Below, one piece after another: positions 33,967 through 44,102 of a stretch of DNA of 64,000 nt. Both the position numbers and the translations under genes were made by a program. Below the pieces are notes generated by a model that was not told where the DNA came from, made no database searches, and saw only the letters and a list, made by a program, of their open reading frames with translations. The stretch's first letter is position 1. Every line of letters begins with the position of its first letter. The stretch comes from Nitrospira sp. CR1.1 (GTDB lineage Bacteria > Nitrospirota > Nitrospiria > Nitrospirales > Nitrospiraceae), in assembly GCA_014055465.1 (NCBI GenBank), contig WIAF01000003.1, forward strand, positions 372,001 to 436,000, read 5' to 3'.

Positions 33967-34089
33967 CAGGATGCGCAAAAAGATCCTTCAACAAGGCCGC
34001 AGCGAACATGGGGAGAGGCGTACGTTGTTGGTACGTCGAGCCGCCGCGCAGAGCAAGAACGCCGCTGGAGGATCTTGTTGCGCATCCTG
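33967..34089. repeat. Long palindromic intergenic element A
   Basis: Arms of 21 bp (CAGGATGCGCAAAAAGATCCT at 33967-33987 and a complement at 34069-34089, 20 of 21 matching) flank an interior with AAGGCCGCAGC, GTACG...GTACGTCGAGCC and GAACGCCGCTGG. The right arm ends at the base next to the accD stop codon. Shared core blocks with the elements at 38322 and 39835 define one family. Confidence 0.85.
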
Positions 34090-36695: not shown

Positions 36696-37760
36696 TCATC
36701 CCCCTCGCGCATGCATTTCCAGGTGGGGATCTTCACGGAGCCGGTTGATTTCAATGAGGCGTTGTTCACGCAGCCCCAACACTTCCAGCGCCTTGCGTTC
36801 TTCCGCGCCTCGATCAGCCCGTCCCTCCCAGGCCGCGATGATCAGCGCTTTCAGTTCGTCCCGGGTGCGGCCCTGCCGGAGCGGCGCGCGGAGATCCAGG
36901 CCGTCCTTCGCATAGAGACAGAGGTACCACATGCCGTCCGCCGTCAACCGGCTGCGATCACAGGAACGACAGAATGGCGTGGTGGTCGAGGGAATGATGC
37001 CGAAGGTGGTCCCATCCGGCAACACAAACCGCTCTGCCGGTGCGACGCTATTCTCCACAACCGGTTGGACGTCGCCATAGTGGCGGCCGATCAGGTCCAG
37101 CATCTCCGCCCTCGACAGCACTTGCTTCATGGACCAATCCGTCGCGCCGCCGACATCCATATATTCGATGAACCGCACCTCACCGCCAACCGTTTTTCCG
37201 TACTCGATGAGGTCGATGAGTTCATCGTCGTTATAGCCCTTGATGACCACGGTGTCGAACTTCAGCGATGGAAACCCGGCTTGCACCACCGCCTTGATGC
37301 CGTCAAACACCTGGTGATGGAGATCCCGCTTGGTCAGGGTCCGGAATCGGTCGGCGCGGAGGGTGTCCAGGCTGATGGTCACGCGATTCAGTCCGGCAAA
37401 CGAGAGATCCGCGGCCTGGTCTGCCATGAGGACGCCGTTGCTGGTGAGGGCAATCTCGGTGATTCGGCGATTTTCTGACAGCTGCCTGACAAATCTCGGC
37501 AGATCCCGCCGCAACAGCGGCTCCCCGCCCGTGAGACGAACCTTGTCCACGCCTAACTCGGTAAAAACCGCCGTGAGCTCGGCCATCTCCTCGAAGGTCA
37601 GAATGGTATCGCGCGGCAACCAGGCGTAATCATCTTCGGGCATACAATACTTGCACCGAAGGTTACAGCGGTCGGTCACGGAGAGGCGCAGGCTGCGGAG
37701 CGGACGCCCCAACCGGTCGTAGATCGTGGGAGCGGGTGTATCGAGCGCGCTGTGGTCCAT
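36696..37760 (-). CDS. moaA: GTP 3',8-cyclase MoaA
   Basis: A 354-residue radical SAM enzyme that converts GTP to 3',8-cH2GTP, the first step of molybdenum cofactor synthesis. N-terminal Cys32, 36 and 39 (CNLRCKYC) hold the SAM cluster; the C-terminal cluster is FCRSCDRSRLTADGMWYLCLY. It ends in Gly-Gly, as required for activity. It lies 48 bp downstream of moaE on the minus strand. Length and motifs are complete. Confidence 0.96.
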   Translation of the reverse strand: MDHSALDTPAPTIYDRLGRPLRSLRLSVTDRCNLRCKYCMPEDDYAWLPRDTILTFEEMAELTAVFTELGVDKVRLTGGEPLLRRDLPRFVRQLSENRRITEIALTSNGVLMADQAADLSFAGLNRVTISLDTLRADRFRTLTKRDLHHQVFDGIKAVVQAGFPSLKFDTVVIKGYNDDELIDLIEYGKTVGGEVRFIEYMDVGGATDWSMKQVLSRAEMLDLIGRHYGDVQPVVENSVAPAERFVLPDGTTFGIIPSTTTPFCRSCDRSRLTADGMWYLCLYAKDGLDLRAPLRQGRTRDELKALIIAAWEGRADRGAEERKALEVLGLREQRLIEINRLREDPHLEMHARGG

Positions 37761-37808: not shown

Positions 37809-38282
37809 CTACGGGTGCTCCTCGACCCACACCTCTCCTTCGGGGGTGTGTTCGAGTTTCCAAATCGGCGTGATTTGCTTCAATTCGTCAATAGCCCATT
37901 TACAGGCCTGAAAGGCCTCGGCTCGATGCTCCGCGCCGGCGATAATCAACACAATGTTGTCGCCGATGCCGATCTCGCCGTACCGGTGCAGGATCAACAG
38001 TTCGATGATGCCAAAATCCTTCAGCGCGCGTTCGCGAATCTCACGCAATTTTTTCTGCGCCATGCCCTCGTAATGCTCGAAGGTGATGCCATCGACATCC
38101 TTGCCCTTCGAACGATCCCTGGCAGTCCCGAGAAAAATCGCAATGCCGCCGATGCGCTTGGAACGCGCGCGCACACGGCGGAGTTCTTCGTCGATCGAAA
38201 AATCTTCGCGCTGTACCCGCACCAGCATTGCGTCATCGCCGGTAACGGGCTGGTCGGCTTTCGTGACCTGTTCAAGACTCAT
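37809..38282 (-). CDS. moaE: Molybdopterin synthase catalytic subunit MoaE
   Basis: A 157-residue protein that, with MoaD thiocarboxylate, converts cyclic pyranopterin monophosphate to molybdopterin. GGIAIFLGTARDRSKGKDVDGITFEHYEGMA and HRYGEIGIGDNIVLIIAGAEHRAEAFQACKWAIDELKQITPIWKLE are standard, and the catalytic lysines are present. An N-terminal extension of about 20 residues is unusual but not disruptive. It is separated from moaD by 150 bp containing palindromic element B. Confidence 0.95.
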   Translation of the reverse strand: MSLEQVTKADQPVTGDDAMLVRVQREDFSIDEELRRVRARSKRIGGIAIFLGTARDRSKGKDVDGITFEHYEGMAQKKLREIRERALKDFGIIELLILHRYGEIGIGDNIVLIIAGAEHRAEAFQACKWAIDELKQITPIWKLEHTPEGEVWVEEHP

Positions 38283-38321: not shown

Positions 38322-38441
38322 AGGATGCTCAACAAGCCTGTCCGGCAAGGCCGCAGCACGCGCAGAGGCCGAGGGTACGATTTGGGTACGTCGAGCCGAC
38401 GCGCAACGCGCGAACGCCGCTGGCAGGCTTGTTCACCATCC
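38322..38441. repeat. Long palindromic intergenic element B, overlapping the moaD stop
   Basis: Left arm GGATGCTCAACAAGCCTG (38322-38339) and right arm at 38424-38441 are complementary at 16 of 18 positions. The interior has CAAGGCCGCAGC, GGTACG...GTACGTCGAGCC and GAACGCCGCTGG, shared with the elements at 33967 and 39835. The right arm contains the moaD stop and its last two codons, Gly-Trp. Confidence 0.85.
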
Positions 38442-38696
38442 GTCACTCCCACCGGCAAACGGCGGTAATAAAGCAATTTCATCCCCATCCTGCACTTCAA
38501 GGTCCTCATGCGCAATATCCTGATTGACCGACACGAGGACTTTCTTCTTCTGCAGCAATTCGCCGATCTTCGGGTAGGCGGCCTCGATCACCGCCACCAA
38601 ATCCTTCACACGCCGGCCATCGGGCAAGGCCAGCGAGAGGGCGCCTTGATTGCCCGCCAACATTTTTGTCATCCCGAACAGGCGCACCGTCACCAT
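38433..38696 (-). CDS. moaD: Molybdopterin synthase sulfur carrier subunit MoaD, C-terminally extended
   Basis: An 87-residue ubiquitin-fold protein (VRLFGMTKMLAGN ... VNQDIAHEDLEVQDGDEIALLPPFAGG). MoaD must end in Gly-Gly so that its C-terminus can be adenylated and thiocarboxylated. Here Gly82-Gly83 are followed by Ser-Asp-Gly-Trp before the stop. The Gly-Trp codons and the stop lie in palindromic element B, so an insertion probably replaced the original end. The protein may need trimming, or may be impaired. The start is ATG 38696 (no strong RBS); the frame is open into moaC. Confidence 0.9.
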   Translation of the reverse strand: MVTVRLFGMTKMLAGNQGALSLALPDGRRVKDLVAVIEAAYPKIGELLQKKKVLVSVNQDIAHEDLEVQDGDEIALLPPFAGGSDGW

Positions 38697-38731: not shown

Positions 38732-39232
38732 TTACACGGGAACCGGGCGTTGATAGGTGCCGGATTTCCCGCCGGACTTGGTCAATAAACAGATCTCGCC
38801 GAAGCTCATCCCTCGATCCACCGCCTTGCACATATCATAGATCGTCAACGCGGCCACCGAGGCGGCCGTCATGGCTTCCATTTCGACGCCCGTCGGCCCC
38901 GTGGTCTTGGCCGTGGCCGTAATCAGAATCGAGCAGCGTCCCTCGCGATCCGGCTGAGTGATTTCTTGAAAGGAAATATCGACGCTCGTCAACATAATGG
39001 GATGGCACATGGGAATCAGATCCGGCGTCTTCTTCGCCCCCATCACACCCGCCACCTGGGCAACGGACAACACATCGCCCTTGGTGATCTTTCCTTGCTG
39101 AATCTTTTCAAGGGTTTCCGGCTGAAGAAACACGATGGCTTGCGCGGTGGCCAGTCGCTCAGTCGAGGCCTTGGCCCCGACATCGACCATCCGTGCCCGC
39201 CCTGATTCGTTGAAATGCGTAAACTCGGCCAT
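38732..39232 (-). CDS. moaC: Cyclic pyranopterin monophosphate synthase MoaC
   Basis: A 166-residue protein that turns 3',8-cH2GTP into cyclic pyranopterin monophosphate. Motifs include FNESGRARMVDVG, KGDVLSVAQVAGVMGAKKTPDLIPMCHPI, and TGPTGVEMEAMTAASVAALTIYDMCKAVDRGM with the active-site residues; the C-terminal KSGG is present. It is the first gene of the moaC-moaD-moaE-moaA group and lies 35 bp upstream of moaD. Confidence 0.96.
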   Translation of the reverse strand: MAEFTHFNESGRARMVDVGAKASTERLATAQAIVFLQPETLEKIQQGKITKGDVLSVAQVAGVMGAKKTPDLIPMCHPIMLTSVDISFQEITQPDREGRCSILITATAKTTGPTGVEMEAMTAASVAALTIYDMCKAVDRGMSFGEICLLTKSGGKSGTYQRPVPV

Positions 39233-39834: not shown

Positions 39835-39958
39835 GCGGGATGTTCAAAAATCCGGTCCAGCAAGGCCGCAACGAGGGAAGAGGTGAGCCCTACTCGTGCC
39901 GTACGTTGATCCTCTGAACGACGTGAGAACGAAGCTGGCGGGCTGTTTCAACATTCCG
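39835..39958. repeat. Long palindromic intergenic element C
   Basis: Left arm from 39835 (GCGGGATGTTCAAAAATCC) and right arm ending at 39959 are complementary at about 15 of 19 positions. The core has CAGCAAGGCCGCAACG and GAACGAAGCTGG, matching the blocks in elements A and B. The right arm abuts, sharing one base with, the TAG stop of the Tim44-like gene. Confidence 0.75.
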
Positions 39959-41511: not shown

Positions 41512-44102
41512 CGGTTCATCCCCACTCGCGCGGGGAACACTAAAAAAACTCGTACGCTATCACCCCGAACTACGGTTCATCCCCACTCGCGCGGGGAACA
41601 CAAGAGCGGCACCGGCAAAACCACGCCGATTGTCCGGTTCATCCCCACTCGCGCGGGGAACACAATTACATAGGGCGATACAAGAAAAAGAAAGCCGGTT
41701 CATCCCCACTCGCGCGGGGAACACATTCACCGCCTGCACCACAAGAATCTGGATCTCGGTTCATCCCCACTCGCGCGGGGAACACTCGTTCACGGCTCTC
41801 GCCTATACGTTCACGTACGGTTCATCCCCACTCGCGCGGGGAACACGGTTTTATCGAACACGATCTTGACGACATCCACGGTTCATCCCCACTCGCGCGG
41901 GGAACACGTTAACGGGCAGATCCCGCACTATGACCCGGCGGTTCATCCCCACTCGCGCGGGGAACACAGACAAGCGATGAGTTATCGCAATTCGAAACTC
42001 GGTTCATCCCCACTCGCGCGGGGAACACAAGGCCAAACCGAGAAGTGGTTAGGTGAGCATCGGTTCATCCCCACTCGCGCGGGGAACACTGGTGCCTGTT
42101 TACCGTGGAACGTTACGCGGGCGGTTCATCCCCACTCGCGCGGGGAACACTAAATTCCCTGGCGCTTGGCCATGCACGATCTCGGTTCATCCCCACTCGC
42201 GCGGGGAACACGCATATTCGCCGACTGGAATCCCGCCAAATCACGGTTCATCCCCACTCGCGCGGGGAACACGGATAATAATCGTTGCATACTCCACCGT
42301 TCGCCGGTTCATCCCCACTCGCGCGGGGAACACTCAGCGAACCCAAGCACCATCTCCCGAAAATCCGGTTCATCCCCACTCGCGCGGGGAACACAAATCC
42401 ACGGTGTACTCGACTTCCCCGGTTTCCGGTTCATCCCCACTCGCGCGGGGAACACCAATCGCGAGCGCGCATCGAAGAGAACCGCGGCGGTTCATCCCCA
42501 CTCGCGCGGGGAACACGTTCCATCCCCGCGACTTCAGTCCGAACGGGTCGGTTCATCCCCACTCGCGCGGGGAACACGGCAATGCGAATGGCTCCCGCGT
42601 AATCAGTGTCGGTTCATCCCCACTCGCGCGGGGAACACCTGGCCGTTGACCCGGGCAGTGAGTCGTGACACGGTTCATCCCCACTCGCGCGGGGAACACG
42701 GCCAGGACGCGAACGAGGTCCTAGAGGAAGTCGGTTCATCCCCACTCGCGCGGGGAACACGTACATACAAAGGCTCTCACGCGCACTCGCGTCGGTTCAT
42801 CCCCACTCGCGCGGGGAACACCCTCGCACTGTTGCCCTATGAGGGAGAATATTAGGTTCATCCCCACTCGCGCGGGGAACACGTGGCCCCCAATTCGCCG
42901 AGGTACTGTTCGAACGGTTCATCCCCACTCGCGCGGGGAACACTACGCCGAGATAACCTGTGGTGGTTGCGCGATCGGTTCATCCCCACTCGCGCGGGGA
43001 ACACATATGCAGAACTGGACAGAGAAAATACGGCAGCGGTTCATCCCCACTCGCGCGGGGAACACGCAATGTGCCCCTTGTCCGGGCGGTGTCGATTCGG
43101 TTCATCCCCACTCGCGCGGGGAACACGAGACGGTCAGCAGCTGGCGCGTCTGCAGATCCGGTTCATCCCCACTCGCGCGGGGAACACGTCAAGGACATAT
43201 TTTTGACGCGTCAATAATCCGGTTCATCCCCACTCGCGCGGGGAACACATTCGAGACGCCTACGGGGTGCATCAGTACTACGGTTCATCCCCACTCGCGC
43301 GGGGAACACGGCAATGTTGCGGGAAAGGTGCTGAATCATGACGGTTCATCCCCACTCGCGCGGGGAACACGCCAGCAACAGGGCGCATAATAGTAACGCC
43401 ACCGGTTCATCCCCACTCGCGCGGGGAACACCACCACGGCCGCAAGGTCATCCGTCACGATGCCGGTTCATCCCCACTCGCGCGGGGAACACAACGCGGA
43501 GATCATAGAAGGCCCGCTCCAAGACGGTTCATCCCCACTCGCGCGGGGAACACCCCATCATGATCGTGGTGATTTGATCCCAGGTCGGTTCATCCCCACT
43601 CGCGCGGGGAACACTTAAAAGCACAGAAGCCTGAAGAAAGGCGTCTCGGTTCATCCCCACTCGCGCGGGGAACACATCGTCTGCCCCGGCGTCACGAAGA
43701 GTACAGCCGGTTCATCCCCACTCGCGCGGGGAACACAAGGTCCAACCGTCTCAGTTCGCCATCGACGACGGTTCATCCCCACTCGCGCGGGGAACACTGG
43801 TGCCTGTTTACCGTGGAACGTTACGCGGGCGGTTCATCCCCACTCGCGCGGGGAACACACGGCTCCGGCGTTGCTGCCCGCTGACTGGCCCGGTTCATCC
43901 CCACTCGCGCGGGGAACACGGGAGGATTGCATGCGAGGACTCACCCGCCTACGGTTCATCCCCACTCGCGCGGGGAACACGACTAACGATTAGCCCACAG
44001 GAGGAACTATGGCGGTTCATCCCCACTCGCGCGGGGAACACTATATCCAGCCGGCCAAGTTTTTGGTGGGTGGCGGTTCATCCCCACTCGCGCGGGGAAC
44101 AC
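41512..44102 (-). CRISPR. Type I-E CRISPR array, 43 repeats and 42 spacers
   Basis: A 29-bp repeat (CGGTTCATCCCC ... CGCGGGGAACAC on this strand, GTGTTCCCCGCGCGAG... on the other) recurs every 61 bp from 41512 to 44074, giving 32-bp spacers. The reverse-strand form is the classic I-E repeat, so crRNA transcription runs leftward from the cas2 side. All copies seen are identical except the one at 42854, whose first base on this strand is A rather than C. Spacers at 42090-42121 and 43798-43829 are identical. Spacer sources could not be searched. Reading frames across the array (HPHSRGEH repeats) are artefacts. Confidence 0.99.

Follow-up and report, generated by a model that had tools for sequence, protein, structure and literature searches.

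The question raised by this locus is why a MoaD protein contains residues beyond the Gly-Gly that is expected to be its mature C-terminus. The window (the whole stretch of 64,000 nucleotides of Nitrospira sp. CR1.1 DNA that was analysed) was found to contain the following moa features:

38433..38696, minus strand: moaD, sulfur carrier and small subunit of molybdopterin synthase, 87 aa (ThiS PF02597, solved relatives, Gly-Gly in 94 family loci)
38448..38453, minus strand: Gly82-Gly83 codons, expected mature C-terminus with a predicted cut after Gly83 (aligned with solved chain ends)
38433..38447, minus strand: tail S-D-G-W and stop TGA, putatively left over from an earlier MoaD-MoaE linker, with a palindromic element providing its end
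38732..39232, minus strand: moaC (Pfam MoaC, 187.4 bits)
37809..38282, minus strand: moaE, large subunit of molybdopterin synthase (Pfam MoaE, 119.1 bits)
36696..37760, minus strand: moaA (Pfam Radical_SAM and Mob_synth_C)

The translation of moaD was found to end in ALLPPFAGG-SDGW-stop, with the tail codons AGT GAC GGA TGG TGA. The original observation of four residues past the Gly-Gly was confirmed: Gly82-Gly83 occupy 38453-38448, followed by SDGW and the stop at 38447-38433, and the Gly-Gly is not last in the primary translation. The match to Pfam ThiS (PF02597; 54.9 bits against a cut-off of 22.5) stopped exactly at residue 83, and all eight solved MoaD-like chains matched by the protein ended exactly at the Gly83 position; the C-terminal tail is therefore unusual among characterised MoaDs. 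The best solved relatives of the 87-aa protein were MoaD chains. The NCBIfam moaD equivalog TIGR01682 scored 47.7 bits, below its cut-off of 66.15, and was still the best-matching family; despite this score, the name MoaD is supported by the place of the gene in the operon, which contained the order moaC-moaD-moaE-moaA and a complete moaA-C-D-E set. The moaE gene was the sole MoaE match in the genome. In most relatives it continues MoaD in frame; in the window moaD and moaE were found to be split, the fused architecture of the MoaX type being absent. A CRISPR array was also found in the window at ~41512-44000, containing at least 40 units of 61 nt with the repeat CGGTTCATCCCCACTCGCGCGGGGAACAC, a type I-E-like sequence.

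A palindromic repeat was found at the moaD-moaE junction, followed by two further copies elsewhere in the window:

38322..38441, minus strand: palindromic repeat at the moaD-moaE junction, 120 nt (model R1, 109.7 bits)
33968..34087, minus strand: second copy of the element, outside moaD
39838..39955, minus strand: third copy of the element, outside moaD

The first nine bases of the junction element were GGA TGG TGA, encoding the G, the W and the stop of moaD, and the S and D codons were found just outside it; the last two codons and the stop lie within the palindromic element (38322-38441), as had been claimed. The RNA fold z-score of the junction element was -3.8. The genome contained at least 105 copies, a lower bound obtained with 150 of 2363 candidates scored. 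The element fits a REP-type repeat, with many dispersed palindromic copies that were mostly intergenic in the 30 neighbourhoods examined. In two of these 30 copies (L256 and L257), a long adjacent ORF was found to terminate at a stop codon inside the element, and moaD is not the sole gene ended by it.

Codons after the Gly-Gly were found in all 30 moaD loci of the genus (29 genomes). Ten of these loci contained the element at the moaD-moaE junction, with the tails SDGW, SDGC, SEGC or SAGC or a 21-residue read-through (G009), and one contained a remnant of it (G005). Short tails were found without the element in 18 of the 30 loci (NR, NQ, NS, SR, GGH, SGHR, NHRSTR and SHRSTR). One locus, that of G021, contained no stop, and MoaD was found to run into MoaE as a full fusion; its linker (L020) contained GAG in place of the TAG stop of the sister G020, which re-creates the fusion. 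The ribosome-binding site of moaE was still present at the G021 junction despite the fusion.

Insertion damage by the element was ruled out as the cause of the tail, since element-free relatives carry tails too. The claim that an insertion had rewritten a normal Gly-Gly end did not hold, the element-free relatives being either tailed (18 of the 30) or fused. The check originally set, for the same SDGW tail in such relatives, had a mixed outcome: tails were present, but in other sequences. The element supplies only the particular last residues (GW or GC) and the stop, in some lineages. Impairment of MoaD, and with it of the cofactor pathway, by its insertion is extremely improbable. A tail left untrimmed would block adenylation by MoeB, and the last codons do come from the element, but element-free tails were found throughout the genus, a single MoaE and the complete moaA-C-D-E operon were retained, and a molybdenum enzyme is needed for nitrite oxidation in Nitrospira. 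The dN/dS between the moaD of the window and its genus relatives was ~0.02-0.06 (pairs with measurable dS), which points to strong purifying selection on a MoaD that is in all probability functional. The option of an impaired cofactor pathway is contradicted by these values and by the genus-wide invariant Gly-Gly, and the pathway is most likely intact.

The Gly-Gly was conserved at the junction in all 94 loci of the family, including two whose alignment rows were clipped by local alignment and in which it was read directly. MoaD and MoaE were fused in one frame in 57 of the 94 loci and split in 37 (22 genera). The cultured N. moscoviensis (NZ_CP011801.1) was found to contain fused MoaD-MoaE, and Ca. 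N. defluvii (FP929003.1) contained a split pair with the element and the tail SEGC. Fusion was the usual state in the family outside the genus of the window, and MoaD-MoaE fusions recurred in other families of the phylum. Some unfused outgroup genes of the phylum were found to contain tails (S, QL, SATH, SGQLRST and 13 residues), and three unfused outgroup MoaDs ended exactly at Gly-Gly. The tails are best read as linker stumps because element-free tails are present genus-wide and fusion is present in the family and the phylum. Among the papers available to the search, no description of a MoaD-MoaE fusion, or of the element, in Nitrospira was found.

Repeated splitting was observed on the tree of MoaD and MoaE, on which no fewer than nine changes of the fused or split label were required, each of them forced by branches with good support. 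The tree was built without an outgroup root and midpoint-rooted for drawing. The prevalence of fusion, the linker-like tails and G021 suggest that the direction was from fused to split; a split-first order is formally possible, given that some distant unfused MoaDs end at Gly-Gly and that the tree has no outgroup root. The state counts on the tree suggest many independent insertions of the element. Split junction alleles with the element were found to be near-identical in distant lineages (G037/G089 and G100/G077; loci L094/L056 and L055/L057), the close sisters of which were fused. As these alleles look shared, a transfer of the split form between lineages is no less likely than many independent insertions, and spread by recombination may account for part of the fused/split changes. 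In the protein model of the fused N. moscoviensis form, residues 79-89, containing Gly82-Gly83 and the linker, had pLDDT below 50 and were found between two folded domains, and the model is consistent with a linker accessible to a protease.

Two further ThiS-like proteins were found in the genome, one at C1:390322 and one, CysO-like, on C19. The first (L002:1501-1773; G000:C1:390322) was a MoaD-like, family-conserved protein of 90 residues with the end DGxGGSGLxPSF, and contained no free Gly-Gly; this conserved tail argues against it as the carrier. The CysO-like protein is encoded in a different operon. The genome search yielded these two and no second canonical MoaD, so that the suggestion of another MoaD was rejected. 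The C19 operon contained, in order, a cysteine-synthase-like gene, a MoeB, a threonine-synthase-like gene, the CysO-like carrier, a second MoeB and a JAMM protein of 177 residues. The rhodanese domain was absent from both MoeB paralogues.

The CysO-like carrier was found to end exactly in GG in the genus of the window and to match a SAMP1-like profile, and it might on these grounds serve MoaE in place of a MoaD that is only structural or dispensable. Such a substitution is very unlikely, for no locus has lost the Gly-Gly of MoaD, purifying selection on MoaD is strong, and most relatives carry MoaD fused to MoaE. The CysO-like carrier itself contained a residue past GG in other genera, where it ended in GGR, GGN or GGC (L123, L125, L126, L128-L132, L219 and L220), and mycobacterial CysO, when assayed in E. 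coli, did not substitute for MoaD (PMC3227635). The CysO-like carrier is the obvious partner of the C19 JAMM, which counts against MoaD as a substrate of that JAMM; the extra residue is in keeping with a JAMM cleaving behind Gly-Gly.

The C19 JAMM was found to match Prok-JAB with 66.9 bits and to contain a complete motif, E32 followed by H112-S-H114-x7-S122-x2-D125 (HSHPx6SxxD), which was invariant in 10 aligned proteins. Its AlphaFold model had a pLDDT of 75.1, and the nearest solved folds were those of P. furiosus JAMM1 (5ld9 and 5lda, E 6.9e-9), alone and in the SAMP2 complex. The desampylase equivalog NF041370 scored 53.6 bits against a cut-off of 130, and the protein is a relative, not an equivalog, of the haloarchaeal desampylase. 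A strong JAMM match was present in 89 of the 98 family genomes, the other nine being incomplete genomes, partial matches or G014. In the genus, JAMM was not found in G002, G009 and G014. The contig of G002 ends inside the MoeB immediately upstream of the expected JAMM place; G009 and G014 lack both MoeBs too, so that the operon is absent in its entirety from their assemblies. The three genomes are thus weakened as JAMM-less counter-examples, and the absence fits assembly gaps. A 778-residue E2-E1-JAB triple-module protein was also found in the genome (L048:3184-7702; G000:C10, ~49-54 kb), flanked by one ORF resembling a metallo-beta-lactamase and one resembling a patatin, in a cluster similar to bacterial ubiquitin-like anti-phage clusters.

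Trimming after Gly83 could instead be the work of another peptidase, either a general carboxypeptidase or an unidentified endoprotease, since the JAMM gene lies outside the moa operon, was not found in the three genomes above, and the protease for mycobacterial MoaX was not identified (PMC4326299). This alternative is unlikely. Where no JAMM was found, the MoeBs were absent as well or the contig broke off, and nearly every genome of the family has a JAMM. Enzymes of this class have been proven to process MoaD-MoaE in Deinococcus and SAMP1-MoaE in Haloferax, and a carboxypeptidase would be unable to free MoaE from the fused form. Trimming by a protease, for which a JAMM with the full motif is present in the genome, was the best supported of the three options originally offered for the tail, and that part of the original interpretation stood while the insertion-rewrite part did not. 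The tail is probably what remains of the linker after a MoaD-MoaE fusion was split, with the standalone MoaD still a pro-protein trimmed by the C19 JAMM.

Pro-forms of this kind are known in the ThiS family, where QbsE and HcyS contain one or two residues past Gly-Gly that are removed by an operon-encoded JAMM; they belong to other pathways, and their tails are short and fixed, not fission remnants. M. tuberculosis MoaX is cut between Gly82 and Ser83, and the cut is needed for activity (PMC4326299). An activity that cleaves MoaX is absent from E. coli (PMC3227635, PMC4326299). MoaX contains MoaD and MoaE in one chain with an internal Gly-Gly, as do relatives of the gene in the window, and the residue after its cleaved Gly-Gly is Ser, with which the tail in the window likewise starts; the gene in the window is, however, split, with only a four-residue stump after Gly-Gly. 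In Deinococcus, DRJAMM (DR0402) cleaves MoaD-MoaE (DR2607), and the mutant accumulates cPMP (PMC8832034). This JAMM/MPN+ protease is also encoded apart from the MoaD-MoaE gene and frees the glycine end of MoaD, but its substrate is a fusion, whereas the proposed substrate in the window is a free MoaD whose tail is short and variable. In Haloferax, HvJAMM1 cleaves a fusion of SAMP1 to MoaE precisely behind the C-terminal glycine of SAMP1, a ubiquitin-like carrier, and so activates and restores MPT synthase (PMC4443979); that linear fusion was artificial, the natural target being isopeptide-linked SAMP1-MoaE. The mycobacterial CysO-MoeZ-Mec+ cysteine pathway, in which the same E1 serves CysO and MoaD (PMC3227635), contains a carrier, an E1-like enzyme, a JAMM and cysteine-synthase-type genes, as does the C19 operon. 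It differs in that the C19 JAMM is proposed to act on MoaD too, and in the two MoeB paralogues without the rhodanese domain. The wide occurrence of Ubl-MoaE fusions among bacteria was known earlier (PMC4443979), and according to a proposal in a 2006 survey ThiS or MoaD could be freed from fusions by JAB proteins (PMC1779556). The mechanism is thus already known, and the lineage of free yet tailed MoaDs is a new form of it.

In the ancestor of the Nitrospira lineage, MoaD and MoaE would have been one fused protein, matured by a cut after the junction Gly-Gly. In the genus of the window, a stop codon in the linker would have split the gene and left a few linker codons on moaD, and in some sublineages a palindromic repeat in the linker would provide the stop (here G-W-stop). 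The maturation step would have been retained, with the C19 JAMM/MPN+ metalloprotease most likely removing Ser-Asp-Gly-Trp after Gly83, followed by adenylation of the freed glycine by MoeB for thiocarboxylation. Tail sequence and length could then drift freely (0 to ~20 residues, a tail of 55, or the entire MoaE), because the protease would cut after Gly-Gly whatever comes next. A wider form of this proposal can be offered only tentatively: that throughout the genus the standalone MoaD is an obligate pro-protein and relies entirely on a JAMM carried over from the fused stage, and that a mobile palindromic repeat has acted as an agent of protein fission by inserting repeatedly into the linker, or spreading through it, at the processing site.

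If the tailed MoaD is trimmed in this manner, bacterial JAMM maturation would extend beyond fused MoaD-MoaE, free MoaDs could be pro-proteins, and annotation pipelines would be wrong to regard residues past Gly-Gly as damage or mistakes. Close relatives, with their fused, split, tailed and re-fused alleles, form a natural series on the tolerance of fission where the processing protease is already there. A major group of nitrite oxidisers would then depend for its cofactor on a deubiquitinase-like protease.
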